From positions 2,604,001 to 2,668,000 of the forward strand of contig NZ_CP101988.1 of assembly GCF_024508335.1 (NCBI RefSeq): a stretch of DNA of 64,000 nucleotides, written 5' to 3'. Positions 33,506-42,406 of this stretch are shown in pieces (position 1 is the first letter of the stretch; the number at the start of each line of letters is the position of its first letter). This DNA is from Cellulomonas chengniuliangii (GTDB lineage Bacteria > Actinomycetota > Actinomycetes > Actinomycetales > Cellulomonadaceae). Below the pieces are notes generated by a model. It was not told where the DNA came from and did not search any database. It worked only from the letters and a program-made list of their open reading frames with translations. Made by a program: the position numbers and the translations under genes.

Positions 33506-33541
33506 CGACGCTGACGCACTCACCGAACTTTGGAGCTAGTC

Positions 33542-34375
33542 GTGGACACCACCGTCTACCAGAACACCTCGCCCGGGCAGCAGTCCGGCCCTCCTGCGAT
33601 CGCCGTCCGGGCCCGTGAGCTCGCCAAGGTCTACGGCGACGGCGCGTCGGCCGTGCACGCCCTGGCTGGTGTCGACGTCGACTTCACCGCCGGCGCGTTC
33701 ACCGCGATCATGGGGCCCTCCGGCTCGGGCAAGTCCACCCTCATGCACCTGCTCGCCGGGCTCGACTCGGCGTCGTCGGGCCACGCGTACCTGGGCGAGA
33801 CCGATGTCACCACGCTGGACGACGACGCGCTGACGCGTCTGCGACGCGACCGGGTCGGCTTCGTCTTCCAGTCCTTCAACCTGCTGCCGATGTTCACGGC
33901 CGAGCAGAACATCACGCTGCCGCTCGAGCTCGCAGGGGCGAAGGTCGACCGCCAGTGGTTCGACACGCTCGTGCAGGCCCTCGGGCTGGGCCAGCGCCTG
34001 ACGCACCGGCCGTCCGAGCTCTCGGGCGGGCAGCAGCAGCGGGTGGCGATCGCCCGCGCCCTGATCACCAAGCCGGAGGTCGTCTTCGCCGACGAGCCCA
34101 CCGGGAACCTCGACTCCCGCTCGGGCGCCGAGGTGCTGAGCTTCCTGCGCCGCTCGGTGCGCGAGCTCGGCCGCACGATCATCATGGTCACCCACGACCC
34201 GACGGCCGCCGCCTACGCGGACCGTGTCGTGCTGCTCGCCGACGGCCGCATCGCCGGGGACATCGCGGACCCGACCCCCGAGTCGGTGCTGGCGGGCCTG
34301 GACGCCCTGCGCCAGCTCGACGAGCCGGTCGCCACGACCGGCGCCATCAACACCGCTCGCACTGCGGGGCTCTGA
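33542..34375 (+). CDS. ABC transporter ATP-binding protein, MacB/LolD-like
   Basis: A 277-residue ATPase. Walker A GPSGSGKST at residues 58-66, signature LSGGQ at 160-164, Walker B VVFADEPTGNLDS with Asp184/Glu185, and a VTHDP switch. GVDVDFTAGAFTAIMG and RLRRDRVGFVFQSFNLLP place it in the MacB/LolD/FtsE family that powers FtsX-type permeases. About 20 N-terminal and 35 C-terminal residues are extra. It overlaps the permease start by one base. GTG 33542 has GGAG six bases upstream. Confidence 0.93.
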   Translation: MDTTVYQNTSPGQQSGPPAIAVRARELAKVYGDGASAVHALAGVDVDFTAGAFTAIMGPSGSGKSTLMHLLAGLDSASSGHAYLGETDVTTLDDDALTRLRRDRVGFVFQSFNLLPMFTAEQNITLPLELAGAKVDRQWFDTLVQALGLGQRLTHRPSELSGGQQQRVAIARALITKPEVVFADEPTGNLDSRSGAEVLSFLRRSVRELGRTIIMVTHDPTAAAYADRVVLLADGRIAGDIADPTPESVLAGLDALRQLDEPVATTGAINTARTAGL

Positions 34376-37053
34376 TGCTGCGACTCACACTGGCCCAGAT
34401 GCGGCGCAGCGTCGGGCGCCTGGCCGCGGGTGGCATCGCCATAGCCATCGGCACCGCCTTCGTCGCCGCCACCCTGCTCGCCGGCGCGGTCATGACGCGG
34501 GCCAGCTATGACGCCATCACGGCCTCCTTGGCCCGCGCGGACCTCGTCACCTATGTGGCGTTCCCGGAGACCATCGACCGGGTGGCGGAGCTGCCCGCCG
34601 TCGAAGCGGTCCATCCGGCGACGACGAGCGGGGTCGAGCTGCACCACGGCTCGCTCCAGATCTGGGCGAACGCAACGCCCCGTGCCCCCCACCGGGACCT
34701 CGAGGTGCAGACGCTCGTCGAGGGCTCGCTGCCCGCAGGCTCCGGCGAGATCGCCCTGCCCGGCCCGATGGCCGAGCGTCTCAAGGTGTCCATCGGAGAC
34801 GAGATCGAAGCGCCGTACACCGTGTGGGTTGCGTCCGACGCCGTGACACCCGAAGGGTCCACCACCGGCGAGGCCCTCCCGCCGACCAGCGCTGAGCCGA
34901 CGACCACTCGTGGCGAGGCGGCGCACGACTCCGCAGAGGAGGAAGGCGACTGGGAGTCGGCGTCCATCGTGTTGCGCGTGGTGGGCCTTCTGGACGACCC
35001 GCTCGGCGCCTACACCGACGGCGGGGGCGCGGCCGTCATCAGCGTCGAGGACACCGAGGCGTTCACCGGGATGTCGCTGGCGGACATGTCCATCGGCGCC
35101 GATGCGCTCATCGTCCTGGCGCCAGGCGCCGACGTGCGCCAGGCGAGCGCCGAGATCAGCGCGATATCGGAATCCGCGGTGCTCACCAAGGACGAGGCTG
35201 CCGAGTTCCGCATCTCGAAGACCGGGGCCGACGGGAAGGTCGTCACCCAGGTGGTGCTGGCCTTCGCGGCGGTGGCCCTGATCGTGGCCGCGCTTGTCAT
35301 CTCGAACACGTTCCAGGTGCTCGTCGCCCAGCGCACGCGGACGCTCGCGCTGCTGCGCTGTGTTGGCGCCGGCAAGCGCCAGCTTCGCTCGTCGGTGCTG
35401 ATCGAGGCGACACTGCTCGGGGGCATCTCCTCGATCGTGGGCATCGTGAGCGGAACCCTGCTCGCGCAGGTCGCGCTCACCGTGCTGCGCTCCTCGACAG
35501 ACACGCCGCTGCCCGCGACGGTGTCCATCTCCCCCTCGGTGGTTCTGGCTCCGCTCATCGTGGGCACGGCGATCACCGTGCTCGCCGCCCTGATGCCGGC
35601 GCGGGCTGCGACACGGGTTGCCCCCATTGCAGCGCTGCGGCCGGCCGACACCCCGATGGTCACCTCGCGCAGTAGCCGGGTCCGGCTGGTTCTCGCGTCG
35701 CTGCTCGTCGTCGGCGGCGTGACGGGTCTGGGTCTGGGCCTGACGCTGGGGACGGACGACCCCGGGCTCGGGCTGGCTCTCGGTCTCCTGGGTGGCGCAG
35801 CGTCGTTCGTCGGGTTCCTCCTCGGCTCGGTGTTCTGGGTGCCGAGGGTCGTCTCCGCCACGGGACGACTCCTCTCTCTGACCGGATCGAGCGCCAAGCT
35901 CGCTGCGGCGAACACCGGGCGGAACCCTCGGCGCACGGCTGCGACCAGCACCGCGCTGCTGATCGGTGTCACGTTGGTCGCGATGATGAGCACGGGTGCG
36001 GCGAGCGCGCGCTCGACGCTCGCAGGGACGCTCGACTCGCAGTACCCCGTGGACGTCTTGATCGCCACTCCGGGACAGCAGGACGGCGGGACGACCGCTT
36101 TGCCGTCCACCGTCGAGGCGACCCTCCGGCAGATGGACGACGTCGCCGACACTGTGCCGGTGCACTCCATCACCGTGGAGATGGGCCAGGCAGGCTCCAC
36201 CACGACCGAGGACGGGGCGGGCTGGGCGGGGCTTCGGGCGATCGACGCCGCCGACGCGAACCGGGTGATGCGCACGAGCCCGTCGGCAGACCAGCTGCGA
36301 GACGGGGCCGTGGTGATGAACACGAGCGTCGCCTCCCGGTTCGGGGTCTCGGAGGGCGACATGGTCCCCGTGGCACAGGCCAACGTGGGCGGGCTGTCCT
36401 CCTGGTCCCCGCTCGTCGTCCAGCTCGAGGTCGTGGTGGCCGACATCAAGAGCAGCGGCTTCCTCGTCACGCGCAGCACGTTCGCCGAGCTCGTGCCCGA
36501 CCCGGTGGGCCCGGACGAGCTGTGGGTGCGGCTCGCGGATGTCAATGACGCCGGCGCCGCGTTCCCGCGGATCCAGGACGCCCTGCTCGACCAGTCCGTG
36601 ATGATCACCGGGGCCGCCGCCGAGCGTGCGCAGTTCCAGCAGGTCATCGACACGCTGCTCGCAGTGGTCGTGGGGCTGCTCGGGGTGGCCGTGGTGATCG
36701 CCATCGTGGGGGTCGCGAACACGCTGTCCCTGTCGGTGCTCGAACGCCGTCGGGAGTCGGCGACGCTGCGTGCGATCGGCCTCTCCCGCCGGCAGCTGCG
36801 GCTGACGCTGGCCATCGAGGGGGTGCTCATCGCCGGGGTGGGAGCCGTCCTCGGCGCGGTGCTGGGCCTGCTGTACGGCTGGGCCGGATCCGCCATCGTG
36901 CTCGGCACGCTCGGGGACGTCTCCCTCGACGTGCCGTGGCGGGACATGGGGATCGTCGTGGTCGTGGCGCTCGCCGCCGGTCTGCTGGCCTCGGTCCTGC
37001 CGGGCCGCTCGGCGGCCCGCACGTCACCGGTCGCCGCGCTCGCCGTGGACTGA
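34375..37053 (+). CDS. FtsX-like ABC transporter permease
   Basis: An 892-residue permease with two FtsX repeats. A first helix (LAAGGIAIAIGTAFVAATLL) is followed by a large extracellular MacB-like domain with an acidic, Thr/Glu-rich insertion around residues 155-190. Then come three helices (FQVLVAQRTRTLALLRCVGAGKRQL contains the coupling helix), a second unit, and a final three-helix FtsX domain with TLSLSVLERRRESATLRAIGL. Such DUF214-type exporters move peptides, antibiotics or lipids, or act as mechanical transmitters. Probably regulated by the upstream NarL-type pair. A strong hairpin follows the stop. Confidence 0.9.
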   Translation: MLRLTLAQMRRSVGRLAAGGIAIAIGTAFVAATLLAGAVMTRASYDAITASLARADLVTYVAFPETIDRVAELPAVEAVHPATTSGVELHHGSLQIWANATPRAPHRDLEVQTLVEGSLPAGSGEIALPGPMAERLKVSIGDEIEAPYTVWVASDAVTPEGSTTGEALPPTSAEPTTTRGEAAHDSAEEEGDWESASIVLRVVGLLDDPLGAYTDGGGAAVISVEDTEAFTGMSLADMSIGADALIVLAPGADVRQASAEISAISESAVLTKDEAAEFRISKTGADGKVVTQVVLAFAAVALIVAALVISNTFQVLVAQRTRTLALLRCVGAGKRQLRSSVLIEATLLGGISSIVGIVSGTLLAQVALTVLRSSTDTPLPATVSISPSVVLAPLIVGTAITVLAALMPARAATRVAPIAALRPADTPMVTSRSSRVRLVLASLLVVGGVTGLGLGLTLGTDDPGLGLALGLLGGAASFVGFLLGSVFWVPRVVSATGRLLSLTGSSAKLAAANTGRNPRRTAATSTALLIGVTLVAMMSTGAASARSTLAGTLDSQYPVDVLIATPGQQDGGTTALPSTVEATLRQMDDVADTVPVHSITVEMGQAGSTTTEDGAGWAGLRAIDAADANRVMRTSPSADQLRDGAVVMNTSVASRFGVSEGDMVPVAQANVGGLSSWSPLVVQLEVVVADIKSSGFLVTRSTFAELVPDPVGPDELWVRLADVNDAGAAFPRIQDALLDQSVMITGAAAERAQFQQVIDTLLAVVVGLLGVAVVIAIVGVANTLSLSVLERRRESATLRAIGLSRRQLRLTLAIEGVLIAGVGAVLGAVLGLLYGWAGSAIVLGTLGDVSLDVPWRDMGIVVVVALAAGLLASVLPGRSAARTSPVAALAVD

Positions 37054-37063
37054 CGGCACGCCG

Positions 37064-37123
37064 GGCGACGGGCCGGCCTGTGGAGGGACTGAGCGTCCAC
37101 CCTTCGCAGGCCGGCCCGTCGCC
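37064..37123 (+). terminator. Long GC-rich hairpin after the ABC exporter
   Basis: A perfect 17-base-pair stem (37064-37080 with 37107-37123) around a 26-base loop. There is no T-run. It ends only 28 bases before the next gene start and just before the proposed promoter at 37140. Confidence 0.75.
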
Positions 37124-37139
37124 GTGCGGGTCCCCCCGG

Positions 37140-37145
37140 CAGTGT
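37140..37145 (+). promoter_or_regulatory. Candidate -10 box, leaderless start of the FHA-FtsK gene
   Basis: CAGTGT (nAnnnT) exactly six bases before GTG 37152; no ribosome binding site. Weak hexamer, judged by position. Confidence 0.3.
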
Positions 37146-37151
37146 GGCGGG

Positions 37152-40100
37152 GTGCGCCTGACCCTCCACAGCCCTGATCCCGCGAGCCCCCAGGCCTGGC
37201 GGAGCGTCGATGTGGAGGTCGACGCCGGCGCCCGACTGGGCGACCTGCGCGCGCACCTGGCCAAGGTCACCGGGCACCTCGGGTGGGCGTGCTCCGAGCG
37301 GCTGGCGGTGGGGGCGAGTCCGCTGGACGACGCCCACCCGTGCGGCACCTCCCCTCTCGTCGCGGGCGCCGTCCTGCGGCTCGGGCGGGGCCCCCGATCG
37401 GAGGACGAGGCGGCCCTGCGGGCGAGCGTCCACCTCGCCGTCGTCGCCGGGCCGGACTGCGGAGGGCTGCTGGCTGTCACGCCCGGGACCGTCGTCGGAC
37501 GCAGGGGCTCCGACGAACTCCCGGGCGCAGCCGGCGCCCTCCTGCTGGCCGACCCGCTGATGTCGTCCCGGCACCTGGAGCTGCGCCCGCACCACCGCGG
37601 AGCGCGGGCACGAGACCTGGGATCCTCCAACGGCACGACGCTGCGCCGCGCGAGGCGGTGGCTGCCCCGACCGGCACGGGCCGACGGACGGCTGCGGCTC
37701 CGACGCGCCGGCGCCGGCGCCCTGCGCGGCCGGTGGACGGTGCTGCGCCCTGGTGACCAGATCGTCACCGGCGCGTCCGTGCTCGAGCTGCGGTCCACCG
37801 CCCGCGAGCACCAGGGTCGTCCGGCGGGCACATCGCCTGCGGGCCCCTCGGCTTGGACGTGGGCGACCCCGGCCGCCGGCTCGGTGGCGCTCGCGATCGC
37901 CACCGGCCACCGCGCGCTGCTGCTGGTCGCGTTGATCGGCCCGCTGCTGGGGATGGGCCAGGTCCTCGCCGAGCGGCGCCGCCGGGCTCGCGGCAGACCA
38001 GCCGCCCTCTCGCACCCGGGCAGCCCGATGGACGCCTCCACCGACGGGACTCCCCTGCGCGACCCCGCTGACCTGGCGATGGCCACCCTGCGTGCCTGCG
38101 GGGCGCCCGGGACGCCGCGGTTCGGCGCCGACCTGGCAGGGCCCGACAGGGTGCTCTGCATCGTCGGACCCCGACCGCAAGCCCTCGGCTGCGCGCGTGC
38201 CGTGGCGCTCGCCGCGGTGGGCACCCACGGCACGGCGGGCCTGACGATCCACGCCGACCCGGCGCTGCTCCAGGACTGGTCGTGGGCGCGATGGCTGACG
38301 AGTGCCGACGCGCCCACGATCGGCCCTGGGGACGGGCAATGGCACTTCACGGTCGTGGACGGGCCTGCGAGCATCGCCGGGGCGGCGCGCCACCTGGCCG
38401 CCGCGGCCGGCGAGGGGCGCCTGGTGGTGCTCGCTTCCACCCTGTCCTCCGTGCCTGCCTGGTGCCGCACGGTGCTGCGGGTCGACGCCCACGGGGCCCG
38501 CCTGAGCACGCCGTTCGCCGACACCGACACGCCGCTGCAGGCCGTCTCCGAGGAGTGGGCCGAAGCGCAGGCCCGCCGCGTCGCCGGCCTACGGCTCGAC
38601 CCCCGTGCGCGTCCTGCCCCGGCCACGGCGCTGGGCGGCGCCCTTCTCGGCACGCCGGGCGGGGGCGCCGGGGGCGAGCCTGCGCCGGGAGCGGATGCCC
38701 TCCCCCGCGACGTCGCCCTCGGCGACTTGCCCGGCATGCCCCCGCCCACCGCCGCGGCCGTGGCCCGAGCGTGGGCCACCGGATCCCACACCGGGCTCGA
38801 GGCGGTGCTGGGGCAGGGCGCGAACGGCCCGGTGCGGGTCGACCTCGTCCGCGACGGCCCGCACGCCCTGGTCGCCGGCACGACGGGCGCGGGGAAGTCC
38901 GCCCTGCTGCGCACCCTGGTGATGTCCCTCGCGCTCACGCACCCGCCGGAGCGCCTCGCCATCGCCCTCATCGACTACAAGGGCGGCGCGAGCTTCGGGC
39001 CCTGCGCCGAGCTTCCGCACGTCGTGGGGCAGGTCACCGACCTCGACGGGCGGCTCGCCCTGCGCGCGTTGGCCGGGCTCCGCGCAGAGCTCCGGCGTCG
39101 CGAGCACACCCTCGCCGCCGCCGGGTGCGCAGACCTCGCCGCGTTGTGGGCGGCCACCGCGCCGGGCTCCCCCACGCCTCCGCCGCGGCTCCTGGTGGTG
39201 GTCGACGAGTTCCGCGCGCTGGCCGACGAGGCCCCGGACTTCATCCCCGGGCTGCTGCGGCTCGCCGCGCAGGGCCGCTCGCTGGGCATGCACCTGGTGC
39301 TCGCCACCCAGCGACCCGCAGGAGCTGTCAACGCCGACCTCCGCGCGAACATCGCGCTGCGCGTCGCGCTGCGGGTCACCGACGCCACGGAGTCCCTCGA
39401 CGTGATCGACGTCCCCGACGCGGCCGGGCTGCCCGCGGACCGCCCTGGCCGAGCAGCGCTGCGCAGGAGCAACGGGCCCGTCGAGCTCCTCCAGGTGGCG
39501 CAGATCCGCGCCCCCGGGACGCGGCCTCCCGTGCGGCTGGCGCCCGCGTGGACCACGCCGCCGGCAGCCGCTTCCCACCCGGCGCAGGACGAGCAGCAGG
39601 ACGACCAGCGTCTCTACCTGGCGGCCGTCCAAGCGGCAGCCCAGGGCCATGACATGCCCCGTGCCCCCTGGCTGCCCGAGCTCCCGCCTGCGGTACGGCT
39701 CTCCGAGCTCGACCCTCCGATGGGTCCTTCCCCGCCGCGACACGGGACAGGCGCCCAGTCAGCAGTGCCCTCCGCCGATGTCCCGACGACCCGGTCCACA
39801 GTGCCGCTGGCCCTCGCCGACCTGCCGGACGAGCAACGCCGCGCCGTGGTCGGGTGGGATCCCGCGCGAGGCCACCTCCTGGTGCAGGGCGCCCCGAGCT
39901 CCGGGCGGACCACCACGCTCCGCACCGCCGCGGCGGGAGCCCTGGCACTGGGGTGGGACGTGCACGCCGTGGGACTGTCGCTGCCCGAGGCCGCGTCAGC
40001 CGACGCTGCCCCAGGGATAGGCACGACGGTGGACGTCGACGACCCCCGTCGGCTCGCCCGCCTGCTGGCGCTGCTGATGGACGGGCCCCACGGCGACGGG

Positions 40101-41162
40101 CGACCCGGGCAGCTGCTGGTGGTCGACGGATGGGAGGCGGCGCTCGAGGCGCTCGACGCCGTGGGGCGCGGCGGCGCCGGGGACCTGCTGCTCGGAGTCG
40201 TGCGCGATGGGCTCGCCAACGGCGTGACGGTGGCGGCCGCCTGCGGCCCGACCGCGCGCACCGCGGCCCTCGCAGGGATGTTCCAGGACCGGATCGTGCT
40301 CGGGCTCGACCCGGTCGACCAGGTGCTCGCCGGCGTCCCCGCCGAGCTCGCCACACGGCCGCGCCGCCCGGGCCGGGCCGTCCACCTGCACGGCGCCGAC
40401 GCCCGCGACTGCCAGGTCGCCGAGCCGGACCGGTGGCCCGCCCTCAGCGGTCGCCCTCCGGCCACGCTGCGGCTGCGCCCCGTTCCCCGGCGGATCGCGT
40501 GGACTGATCTCGGCGCGGTCGCCCCCGACGCGTCTCGGGCCGCCGTCGGGCGGGGCGGCGACGACGCCGCCGTGACGTTCCTGGACGTCACCCGAGGGGC
40601 CCTCGTGGTGGGTCCTGCGGGTTCGGGCCGGACGAACACGCTCACCGTGATCGCCACCGGCCTCGTCCACGCGGGCAGGGCGGTGGCCGTGGTGTCGTCA
40701 GACGCCGCGCTGCTCGCCGTCCCGGGCGCGCGCTGGGCGTCCGAGCCGAACGGGCTCGCCGCCCTGCTCGACACCATCGCCGCCACAGGGCGCCGTGCGG
40801 GCGCCGCCGACGCCGACCACGACGTCGACCTCGTGGTGGACGATCTGGACGTCCTCGAGCAACTGTTCCCGGTCGAGGCCGAGCGGCTGGCCAGCGCGGC
40901 CGGCCGGGTCCGCCTGATCGCCTCAGCCCGCACCGCCCGCGCGGCGACCGCCTACCGCGAGCCGATGGCCCGGCTGCGCGCCATCCGCCAGGGCGTGGTC
41001 CTCGACCCCGCCGAGCCGGGCTCGTCGGACGTGTTCGGGGTCGACCTGGCGCGCGTCACAGATCCAGCCCACCCGCACGCCGCGGGTCGTGGCGCCGTCG
41101 TGCACGGTCGGCTGCTCACACCGGTCCAGGCGGCCTTGCCGCCCACGGCCACTAACGGCTGA
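37152..41162 (+). CDS. FHA-FtsK/SpoIIIE ATPase, EccC/EssC-like
   Basis: A 1336-residue protein. Residues 1-80 look like the ubiquitin-like N-terminal domain of such ATPases. An FHA domain covers about 105-215: GTVVGRR at 112, SRHLEL from 139, SSNGTT at 158-163. One or two helices (ALAIATGHRALLLVALIGPLLG) lie near residue 250. Three ATPase domains follow. Only the first is canonical: Walker A GTTGAGKS at 576-583 and Walker B VVVDEF with Asp685. The second has GAPSSGRTT at 913-921 and the third GPAGSGRTN near 1154, both with Lys replaced by Arg. This layout is that of type VII secretion motors (EccC/EssC). No WXG100 substrate, EccB, EccD or mycosin gene is in the window. Confidence 0.85.
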   Translation: MRLTLHSPDPASPQAWRSVDVEVDAGARLGDLRAHLAKVTGHLGWACSERLAVGASPLDDAHPCGTSPLVAGAVLRLGRGPRSEDEAALRASVHLAVVAGPDCGGLLAVTPGTVVGRRGSDELPGAAGALLLADPLMSSRHLELRPHHRGARARDLGSSNGTTLRRARRWLPRPARADGRLRLRRAGAGALRGRWTVLRPGDQIVTGASVLELRSTAREHQGRPAGTSPAGPSAWTWATPAAGSVALAIATGHRALLLVALIGPLLGMGQVLAERRRRARGRPAALSHPGSPMDASTDGTPLRDPADLAMATLRACGAPGTPRFGADLAGPDRVLCIVGPRPQALGCARAVALAAVGTHGTAGLTIHADPALLQDWSWARWLTSADAPTIGPGDGQWHFTVVDGPASIAGAARHLAAAAGEGRLVVLASTLSSVPAWCRTVLRVDAHGARLSTPFADTDTPLQAVSEEWAEAQARRVAGLRLDPRARPAPATALGGALLGTPGGGAGGEPAPGADALPRDVALGDLPGMPPPTAAAVARAWATGSHTGLEAVLGQGANGPVRVDLVRDGPHALVAGTTGAGKSALLRTLVMSLALTHPPERLAIALIDYKGGASFGPCAELPHVVGQVTDLDGRLALRALAGLRAELRRREHTLAAAGCADLAALWAATAPGSPTPPPRLLVVVDEFRALADEAPDFIPGLLRLAAQGRSLGMHLVLATQRPAGAVNADLRANIALRVALRVTDATESLDVIDVPDAAGLPADRPGRAALRRSNGPVELLQVAQIRAPGTRPPVRLAPAWTTPPAAASHPAQDEQQDDQRLYLAAVQAAAQGHDMPRAPWLPELPPAVRLSELDPPMGPSPPRHGTGAQSAVPSADVPTTRSTVPLALADLPDEQRRAVVGWDPARGHLLVQGAPSSGRTTTLRTAAAGALALGWDVHAVGLSLPEAASADAAPGIGTTVDVDDPRRLARLLALLMDGPHGDGRPGQLLVVDGWEAALEALDAVGRGGAGDLLLGVVRDGLANGVTVAAACGPTARTAALAGMFQDRIVLGLDPVDQVLAGVPAELATRPRRPGRAVHLHGADARDCQVAEPDRWPALSGRPPATLRLRPVPRRIAWTDLGAVAPDASRAAVGRGGDDAAVTFLDVTRGALVVGPAGSGRTNTLTVIATGLVHAGRAVAVVSSDAALLAVPGARWASEPNGLAALLDTIAATGRRAGAADADHDVDLVVDDLDVLEQLFPVEAERLASAAGRVRLIASARTARAATAYREPMARLRAIRQGVVLDPAEPGSSDVFGVDLARVTDPAHPHAAGRGAVVHGRLLTPVQAALPPTATNG

Positions 41163-41230
41163 CGGCTGACGGCTGACGGCTGACGGCTGACGGCTGACGG
41201 CTGACGGCTGACGTTGACGTTGACGTTGAC
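41157..41230. repeat. Tandem heptamer and hexamer repeats
   Basis: Eight exact copies of GGCTGAC (41157-41212) run directly into three copies of GTTGAC (41213-41230). The first unit supplies the stop codon of the FHA-FtsK gene. Because the unit is 7 bases and contains TGA, stops occur in all three forward frames. Confidence 0.95.
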
Positions 41231-41291
41231 AGCAGAGCGCCATCACCTGCCCGTGCGGCGAGGACCCGCTGCCCTGGGGCGCGTGCCGCCG

Positions 41292-41714
41292 CTATCGCCG
41301 GGGCGACCGCGGCGCAGCGGGCTCGTCCTCGTCGCCACGCCCGGTCGTCGCGGCGACGACCCCGGGCGTCAGGAGCCCGACGCCGACGGCCAGGGCGGCC
41401 GCCAAGATGCCCGCAGCCCAACCGGTCGCCTCCACCTGGAGCCATCCCACCGAGAGGACCACGAGGAAGAGCTGCCAGGTGAGCACCGGCGACCGGGCCC
41501 AGCGTCGCCCGCGCCACAGCCCACGGGCACTGAGCGCCAGGACGGCGGCCACCGCCAGAGAGAACACCACGAGGAACGCCATCGCGCCCACCACCTGCGA
41601 GCCACGCACGATCTCGACGGCGAACGCCACACCCAGGCCGACCAGCAGCGCGGCCTCGAGCAGGACGAGCAGGCAGAGGGGGGCAAGCAGGCGGGGCGCA
41701 CGTCGCAAGGGCAC
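41292..41714 (-). CDS. Small four-helix membrane protein
   Basis: A 140-residue protein with four hydrophobic segments (LLAPLCLLVLLEAALLVGLG; VVGAMAFLVVFSLAVAAVLA; LTWQLFLVVLSVGWLQV; AAGILAAALAVGVGLL) and an acidic-basic tail. No family recognised; it resembles many unnamed actinobacterial integral membrane proteins. GTG 41714 has no ribosome binding site but TAGGGT sits six bases upstream, which fixes the start as leaderless. It is convergent with the FHA-FtsK gene, the heptamer repeat lying between their ends. Confidence 0.7.
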   Translation of the reverse strand: MPLRRAPRLLAPLCLLVLLEAALLVGLGVAFAVEIVRGSQVVGAMAFLVVFSLAVAAVLALSARGLWRGRRWARSPVLTWQLFLVVLSVGWLQVEATGWAAGILAAALAVGVGLLTPGVVAATTGRGDEDEPAAPRSPRR

Positions 41715-41720
41715 CGGCTG

Positions 41721-41726
41721 ACCCTA
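41721..41726 (-). promoter_or_regulatory. Candidate -10 box, leaderless start of small membrane protein
   Basis: TAGGGT on the minus strand, exactly six bases before GTG 41714. Confidence 0.5.
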
Positions 41727-42157
41727 CGCGAGGCCCCCCACAGGCGAGGGCGCTGACGGCGGACCACCGTCGTACCGCCCTTCCGTCAGGGTGTGCCCAG
41801 TCCCCGGCCGCCCCCGAACCGAGGGCTCTGTCGAACCCGCAGGTCAGCGCGTCGCACAGTGGGTCATGCACGACACCCAGGCCGATTTCGCCCTGCGGGC
41901 CGACCAGGATAGGGTGACCAGTCCATTCACAGGTGGCGTCCAGGTGTGATGAAGACCTCAGGCCACGTGGAGAACCGGCGCGCCCATAGATCTTGTGCTG
42001 CGTGCCCGCAGGTGTGAGGCTGTTTCCAGCAGTTGATCCCCCCACCCATGCGCCGCAGGATTCACACGAGCCGCCACATTGCTGTGCCGTGCTGCGCGCA
42101 TCAAGCCCGGAGCCCTCGTGAGGACCCTGGCTTGCCCTGTGCAAGGAGAGAGATTTC
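41727..42157. other. Intergenic region upstream of whiB
   Basis: About 430 bases with no supportable gene. It should hold the promoters of both divergent neighbours. On the minus strand, roughly 41840-41960 translates to protein-like sequence containing CEWTGHPILVGPQGEIG and DPLCDALTCGFDRA but has no clear start and no recognised family; it may be a gene remnant. Just before whiB is the ribosome binding site AAGGAGAG (42141-42148). Confidence 0.5.
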
Positions 42158-42406
42158 ATGGACTGGCGCCACCGCGCAGCGTGCCTGGACGAAGACCCCG
42201 AGCTGTTCTTCCCGATCGGCAACACCGGTCCCGCACTGCTGCAGATCGACGAGGCGAAGGCTGTCTGCCGTCGCTGCGAGGTCGTGGACACCTGCCTCAA
42301 GTGGGCCCTCGAGTCCGGCCAGGACGCCGGTGTCTGGGGCGGCCTCTCCGAGGACGAGCGTCGCGCCCTCAAGCGGCGCACGGCACGCCAGCGCCGCGCG
42401 AGCTGA
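42158..42406 (+). CDS. whiB1: WhiB-family iron-sulfur regulator, WhiB1-like
   Basis: An 82-residue WhiB protein. The four cluster-binding cysteines are Cys9, Cys37, Cys40 and Cys46 (C-x27-C-x2-C-x5-C), the same spacing as M. tuberculosis WhiB1. GVWGGLSEDER at 58-68 is the family G(V/I)WGG turn that contacts the housekeeping sigma factor, and the KRRTARQRR tail should bind DNA. WhiB1-type proteins carry a nitric-oxide-sensitive 4Fe-4S cluster and act with sigma-A. AAGGAGAG lies about ten bases before ATG 42158. Two hairpins follow, and a PdtaS-like kinase gene converges on it. Confidence 0.93.
   Translation: MDWRHRAACLDEDPELFFPIGNTGPALLQIDEAKAVCRRCEVVDTCLKWALESGQDAGVWGGLSEDERRALKRRTARQRRAS

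Follow-up and report, generated by a model that had tools for sequence, protein, structure and literature searches.

We examined a 64,000-nucleotide stretch of the Cellulomonas chengniuliangii chromosome (contig NZ_CP101988.1, positions 2604001-2668000 of a 3.57 Mb single-contig chromosome; genome G000 below), referred to here as the window, and focused on the gene at window positions 37152-41162, designated P0001. Taking profile searches, trees, motifs, and gene order together, we consider it fairly probable that P0001 is a solitary, FHA-bearing type VII secretion motor of the EssC-like (TsxC) kind, a core gene of the genus that is independent of the ESX system of the same genome, is driven by the first of its three ATPase domains (D1), and has its partners and cargo encoded elsewhere. 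The original prediction, made from the letters of the window, had described an orphan type VII-like motor composed of an N-terminal domain, an FHA domain with SRH and SNGT, a membrane segment, and three ATPase domains (D1-D3), of which only one has an intact Walker A motif and two carry Lys to Arg changes. Profiles and motifs bore out each part of this description, and the profile searches placed P0001 in the EssC/EccC family rather than in an unrelated FtsK family.

Domain architecture of P0001

P0001 encodes 1336 residues from a GTG start, and both this start and the N-terminal pattern V-R-[LI]-[TL]-L recur in its orthologues. The gene and its parts, with the evidence for each, are as follows.

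37152..41162, + strand: putative solitary TsxC/EssC-type ATPase gene P0001 (profile searches, trees, motifs, genus synteny)
37152..37391, + strand: YukD/EsaB-like (ubiquitin-fold) N-terminal domain, residues 1-80 (hhalign against YukD domains)
37422..37796, + strand: FHA domain, residues ~91-215, with GRR, SRH, and SNGT (Pfam FHA, NCBIfam FhaB, motif columns)
37872..37976, + strand: hydrophobic stretch, residues 241-275, putative membrane hairpin (hydropathy, alignment of relatives)
38712..39521, + strand: ATPase domain D1, residues ~521-790, GTTGAGKS and VVVDEF (profiles, motifs)
39858..40301, + strand: ATPase-like domain D2, GAPSSGRT and VVDG (motifs)
40587..41159, + strand: ATPase-like domain D3, GPAGSGRT and VVDD (motifs)

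The Pfam FtsK_SpoIIIE profile matched P0001 at an E-value of 5.7e-36 (best stretch, residues 545-723). The FHA domain was recognized by Pfam at 7.5e-4 over residues 114-166, a borderline match just under the gathering score (20.3 vs. 20.7 bits), and by NCBIfam FhaB at 2.5e-5; its SRH and SNGT motifs lie at residues 139 and 159. The P-loops lie at residues 576 (D1), 913 (D2), and 1154 (D3), the latter two with Arg in place of Lys, and the Walker B motif of D2 is without its catalytic Glu. D1 alone has both Walker motifs complete and forms the one complete predicted ATPase site. The loss of Glu in D2 is nothing special, since D2 of the genome's own EccC also reads VVDG. Hydropathy located a single hydrophobic stretch, at residues 241-275, and hydrophobic segments align at this position in the relatives of P0001; we read it as a short membrane hairpin.

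The first ~80 residues matched YukD-type domains with hhalign (74.6% probability, E-value 2.7e-5 as a single comparison, 75 columns) when 21 family sequences were set against the genome's own EccD, a Streptomyces EccD, and an Enterococcus EsaB-like protein. None of 40 column shuffles reached 74.6% (best 0.71%), a reversed profile gave 0.06%, and an FHA profile gave 0.2%. By subset, the match stood at 67% with the genus sequences and at 40% with the remaining sequences. The Pfam YukD profile itself did not match P0001, and a single-sequence structure prediction for residues 1-230 (mean predicted local distance difference test score 33.4) was too poor to judge the fold. We regard the N-terminal domain as YukD-like on a match of moderate strength.

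Placement among FtsK, EssC, and EccC proteins

NCBIfam profiles ranked EssC (1.2e-66) and EccCa (6.7e-63) first, with FtsK far weaker (1.1e-15), and the closest solved structure by sequence was 4nh0 (8.6e-68), whose entry is named FtsK/SpoIIIE and which we take to be EccC of T. curvata. A role as an FtsK/SpoIIIE DNA translocase was rejected on the ranking of these profiles and on the lack of a gamma domain among the 22 Pfam hits; a separate FtsK-like candidate frame of 925 residues lies at 2180.6 kb of the same genome.

Two trees of 20 sequences each were built, one from D1 and one from full-length sequences. Both split five EccC-type sequences from the side on which P0001 falls (support 1.000 in each), and P0001 paired with L110, a motor on a phage-labelled record, at 0.965 in the D1 tree and 0.993 in the full-length tree. 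An EssC of type VII secretion system (T7SS) subtype b, L114, which adjoins YukC and an LXG protein, fell outside the five EccC-type sequences in both trees, and its D1 motif, ATQKPSG, is of the P0001 kind. The D1 motif ATQRPxG was found in all 14 members of the branch, P0001 included, and QRLxEG in all five EccC-type sequences. By tree and by motif, P0001 is set apart from EccC, and it is best described as an FHA-bearing EssC-like motor.

The Lys to Arg changes recur along this branch. In 13 branch relatives (P0001 and L114 not counted), the D2 loop residue was Arg in ten, Thr in two, and Lys in one, and the D3 loop residue was Arg in 12 and Lys in one. In S. aureus EssC, too, the D2 Walker A motif contains Arg (R1020; PMC9436818), so the change is not unprecedented. 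The changes noted in the original prediction are therefore real without being peculiar to P0001, and we discarded them as a sign of decay in this gene alone. The FHA motifs are intact in P0001, L110, L111, and L029, as well as in L023 (Rothia), which has an unusual S-W-E-H, and are lost in all nine Streptomyces, Embleya, Nonomuraea, and Curtobacterium branch members compared. The broken Arthrobacter gene L022, with Lys in its D2 loop and Arg in its D3 loop, was left out of the tree and the motif table, and L112 (D1 GTTGSGKS, second loop GAYGSGKT) was not used.

Conservation in the genus and search for partners

The genus set comprised seven genomes (G000-G006, including this one) and was searched with P0001 residues 521-916. 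All seven carry an orthologue, with 64-74% identity over these residues in the other six, and in all seven the gene order ABC-FtsX, motor, small hydrophobic gene, WhiB, and PdtaS is kept, the contig of G004 ending inside FtsX; the gene is thus conserved beside a WhiB gene throughout the set. The conserved neighbours in the window, identified by genus synteny, are the following.

33530..34375, + strand: ABC ATPase, upstream
34510..37053, + strand: FtsX-type permease, upstream
41292..41714, - strand: small hydrophobic protein without a Pfam match, convergent
42158..42406, + strand: WhiB-family regulator

Identity across the genus is 96-100% for WhiB, 86-98% for PdtaS, and 45-61% for the motor. 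Ratios of nonsynonymous to synonymous substitution (dN/dS) in three pairs were 0.30, 0.34, and 0.32 for the whole gene and 0.10, 0.25, and 0.15 for D1 (the pair G003-G004 covering the longer piece only), values near 0.3 and lower in D1 that indicate purifying selection on a working gene. Frames are full length in five of the seven orthologues. The D2 and D3 loops have Arg in all five orthologues with D1-D3 in one frame (G001-G005), and the R, S, and N positions of the FHA domain are kept in P0001 and in the five genus orthologues whose FHA part was compared; frame breaks place G006 outside the former count and G003 outside the latter.

The original prediction had stated that no WXG100, EccB, EccD, EccE, or mycosin gene lies in the window. 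For WXG100, EccB, EccD, and mycosin this was upheld by profile search and tblastn; EccE was not searched. The tblastn queries, 14 type VII proteins covering EccB, EccD, mycosin, YukC, EsaB, WXG100, and accessory proteins of the relatives, gave no match in the window, nor in the 10 kb and 12 kb flanking it, and Enterococcus YukC was among those without a match there. Nor did TsdH or TsdI match near P0001, a weak test in that putative Rothia proteins were the only queries, and for WXG100 the tblastn result is weak because these short proteins diverge fast. Elsewhere in the genus, tblastn of the neighbourhoods (about 8 kb on each side, 1.4 kb upstream in G004, and a further 20 kb downstream in G002, G003, G005, and G006) found no type VII partner homologue except at two extra paralogue loci of G002. 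These lie on contig 33 of that genome and hold two further FHA-branch motors (L132 and L133). Both motors have a WXG100 gene adjoining or close by, and their loop residue is Lys or Thr in D2 and Arg in D3.

The ESX locus and WXG100 genes of the host genome

An ESX-type locus lies at ~2993-3009 kb, about 350 kb from P0001, and encodes two mycosin-like subtilase-family proteins, EccB (5e-67), EccD, a WXG100 pair, a three-domain EccC, and a PP2C phosphatase. This EccC (L011) has GKS in all three loops and shares 35% identity with P0001 over the best stretch; since the locus has its own three-domain EccC, P0001 is a second, separate motor. An EccC-type second match was found in G000, G001, G002, and G005, and none at an E-value of 0.001 in G003, G004, or G006, each of which gave a weaker FtsK-like match. 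We take P0001 to be independent of ESX because the genome's EccC sits ~350 kb away and because the orthologue is kept in three of seven genomes without an EccC match; these same points and the tree split led us to reject P0001 as the displaced EccC of that locus. The original prediction had left the choice between partners encoded elsewhere and a stand-alone motor: a full ESX set does exist elsewhere but comes with its own EccC, and the persistence of the orthologue in those three genomes speaks for the stand-alone side, so that each side holds in part.

Searched as a whole with the WXG100 profile, the genome gave six places, none within the window. Four of them scored above the curated cut-off, namely a neighbouring pair at 2997.6-2998.2 kb, a lone gene at 653.7 kb, and a further one at 3284.0 kb. 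Outside the ESX locus, WXG100 or WXG-like proteins are thus encoded at 653.7 kb (L014), 768.6 kb (L016, below the cut-off), and 3284.0 kb (L015), and it is possible that these are cargo of either motor.

Proposed mechanism and alternative explanations

By analogy with EssC, P0001 would form a membrane-bound ring in which D1 burns ATP and drives translocation; for EssC, D1 by itself is reported to provide a motive force (PMC4925161). D2 and D3 would bind cargo or hold nucleotide without hydrolysis, and the FHA domain would recruit, or be gated by, a Thr-phosphorylated partner, much as FHA2 of EssC recruits the EssB pseudokinase (PMC9436818). The cargo would be WXG100-like helical-hairpin proteins encoded elsewhere, with the WXG100 protein at 653.7 kb and the larger WXG-type proteins at 768.6 and 3284.0 kb as candidates. 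Export activity and phospho-gating are what we infer from this analogy. A solitary motor fixed in the genus, even where no EccC was detected, would offer a natural minimal system for learning what the ATPase does alone and which other components are indispensable, and its fused YukD-like domain and intact FHA motifs would give a direct handle on phosphorylation control.

A bolder version, which we think unlikely, is a type VII machine made by one gene, in which YukD, FHA, and EssC parts are fused. It would export its cargo with no dedicated WXG100, EccB, EccD, EssB, or TsdI at its locus and be recruited or gated through phospho-Thr, with D1 as the sole engine and D2 and D3 turned into non-hydrolysing cargo clamps by the Lys to Arg changes.

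The original prediction also named the Ser/Thr kinase near 61.6 kb (61598) as a possible writer of the FHA signal, a suggestion that found no support. The kinase lies ~20 kb from P0001, has no membrane segment, and is present in all four genus genomes checked, yet three other genes of the region are kept in 4/4, 3/4, and 3/4 of them; we rejected it as a dedicated writer because this is only regional synteny in which nearby genes share.

Several results weigh against the solitary type VII motor that we favour. Its profile scores fall well below the equivalog cut-off of EssC (TIGR03928; 225.2 vs. 778.4 bits) and the cut-offs of EccCa (213.5 vs. 509.15) and EccCb (174.8 vs. 346.55). The placement of the T7SSb EssC L114 is unstable: it pairs with Rothia when D1 is used (0.803), and full-length sequences bring it closest to the EccC group (0.980). 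These trees therefore do not decide whether P0001 is nearer to EssC than to EccC, a statement that rests on motifs and a published tree. The absence of EccC from G003, G004, and G006 comes from one search, and G004 is fragmented (220 contigs). Frames are broken in two of seven orthologues, in the D1-D2 linker of G006 and between the FHA domain and the hydrophobic hairpin of G003; such breaks could reflect errors of assembly or decay, and the one in G006 could also be a split like that of EccCa and EccCb, which presumably falls at this place. Of the relatives compared, L110 is the closest from outside the genus; it adjoins tad-type genes, and no WXG100 was seen on its 12 kb. In S. aureus EssC, altering the D2 Walker motif hampers both assembly and secretion, and without D3 secretion is lost (PMC9436818, PMC4925161); D2 and D3 may thus do more than clamp passively.

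A first alternative is that P0001 now serves a different membrane task, for instance helping in the assembly or regulation of Tad pili or another envelope machine through the FHA domain, with no WXG100 export. The strongly supported pairing with L110, whose motor gene diverges from a tad-type operon, the Nonomuraea relative that also sits beside tad genes, and the T7SSg and T7SSh loci described beside Tad genes (PMC11217815) all favour it; against it, no tad gene was identified among the genus neighbours (the genome was not searched for tad), and other branch members stand near WXG100 genes. We consider it rather improbable.

We give a similarly low weight to P0001 being the decaying relic of a T7SSd-like locus that has lost its partners. 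The broken frames, the lower identity of the motor than of WhiB and PdtaS (86-100%), and the lack of detected partners nearby speak for it, but the gene holds the same place in 7/7 genomes with full-length frames in 5/7, dN/dS is ~0.3 (0.10-0.25 in D1), the Walker and FHA motifs are kept, and the breaks sit in linkers and may be assembly errors. Least probable of all, and in our view very unlikely, is that P0001 serves the ESX locus as an additional or substitute ATPase and shares its EccB, EccD, and WXG100 proteins. That locus is complete, and the Nonomuraea relative L020 shows that a branch motor can adjoin EccB, but ESX already possesses a three-domain EccC whose loops are intact, three of seven genomes keep the orthologue without an EccC match, and the two motors lie on opposite sides of a split supported at 1.000.

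Relatives outside the genus

Relatives of P0001 were gathered by tblastn from plasmid records (139 with a match, 15 fetched) and phage-labelled records (three of 21 matching fetched), and from a viral contig scan (best 80 of 268 relatives), from which L030 and L031 alone were used after an open reading frame filter; a genome contig scan with P0001 gave one match, at 28% identity on a Rhodobacteraceae contig, which was not used. The motor has a WXG100-type gene as a direct or close neighbour in Streptomyces NBC_01450, atratus, NBC_00055, and NBC_00019, in Curtobacterium, in L111, and at both G002 paralogues; the annotations of Rothia L023 and Streptomyces L021 include none.

The motors of L110 (faecal record MT836307) and L020 (Nonomuraea) are FHA-branch members divergent from tad-type pilus operons, and in L020 the motor is followed by EccB with the tad operon alongside. 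The virus label of L110 and L111 ("Bacteriophage sp.") is doubtful because their content is bacterial-like, as with the gluconate-permease-like protein and tad genes of L110.

Six Streptomyces and Curtobacterium plasmid loci (L018, L019, L021, L024, L025, and L026) share a motor with a degenerate FHA domain and, in most, a WXG100 gene; the four examined for it (L018, L019, L021, and L026) also encode an accessory family, A1, with no Pfam match and a hydrophobic N-terminal part. These six loci are possibly an undescribed type VII subtype. By reading alone, L111 (11162-24415) and the Arthrobacter locus L022 (1816-11434) each encode a PP2C phosphatase, a C-terminal-FHA-like protein, a membrane Ser/Thr kinase, a further FHA-like protein, and an FHA motor, and L111 also has three WXG100-like genes. 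On that reading the two loci appear to resemble T7SSe, reported from Bacillota only, and are found here in Arthrobacter and in high-GC faecal DNA. Some relatives of P0001 have the look of actinobacterial type VII loci that the published T7SSa-j scheme does not cover.

Other features around P0001

One further feature lies between the FtsX stop and the P0001 start.

37064..37123, + strand: GC-rich long hairpin (folding in 7/7 genus genomes)

The hairpin has no U tract, and comparable hairpins fold in all seven genus genomes. Two-sided changes occur in five of 22 consensus pairs, with a covariation term near zero (+0.35) and several pairs broken in some sequences; it is perhaps a terminator or an element of the 5' untranslated region. 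Rfam gave no match in the window at gathering scores, and no promoter-like or U-tailed terminator-like match was found at 36900-42300. A perfect tandem repeat of a 7-bp unit (ACGGCTG, 8.4 copies) runs across the P0001 stop codon and is followed by a 6-bp repeat (41155-41230).

Comparison with known type VII systems

Like EccC (L011 and 4nh0, the latter being the solved structure closest to P0001 by sequence), P0001 has three FtsK-type ATPase domains after a membrane segment. Unlike it, the EccC of the same genome is without the YukD-like and FHA part, has GKS three times and another D1 motif, and lies beside EccB, EccD, subtilases, and WXG100 genes. EssC of S. aureus and Geobacillus has a similar plan, with cytosolic N-terminal domains and two transmembrane segments preceding D1-D2-D3 (PMC9436818, PMC4925161), and P0001 keeps the EssC order of FHA domain, membrane segment, and three ATPase domains. 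As described in those sources, EssC has two FHA domains without the phospho-Thr residues, whereas the first domain of P0001 is YukD-like and its FHA motifs are intact; moreover, unlike T7SSb EssC, P0001 has no YukC/EssB match in the window or flanks. The FHA-branch motors on Streptomyces, Embleya, Curtobacterium, and Rothia plasmids share 28-34% identity, the same domain order, and Arg in most D2 and D3 loops with P0001, and several of them, unlike P0001, stand near WXG100 genes. Among the papers listed by our search of the open-licence full-text literature, none describes a solitary motor of this kind in its title or the opening of its abstract, which is not proof of its absence from print.

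Among the subtypes T7SSc-j defined by Garrett, Higginson and Palmer 2024 (PMC11217815), each ATPase is accompanied by a cluster of parts, as far as the consulted text describes them, with no TsxA pinpointed in T7SSi though WXG100 genes are present. The T7SSd locus, from Actinomycetota, encodes TsdC, whose FHA domain keeps its phospho-Thr residues, together with a WXG100 protein (TsdA), a kinase (TsdD), TsdH, and TsdI, and the published tree places TsdC nearer to EssC than to EccC (PMC11217815). P0001 resembles TsdC in its actinomycetotal host, in being an FHA-bearing EssC-like ATPase, and in its conserved FHA phospho-Thr residues. This likeness is drawn from the published description with no named TsdC sequence compared, Rothia L023 being T7SSd-like by reading only. 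It differs from T7SSd in that TsdA, TsdD, TsdH, and TsdI are adjacent there and none was detected at P0001, and in the fusion of a YukD-like domain to the motor, no ubiquitin-like protein having been found for T7SSd in PMC11217815. If the one-gene machine were true, the fused YukD-like domain would suggest the fate of the ubiquitin-like subunit missing from T7SSd.

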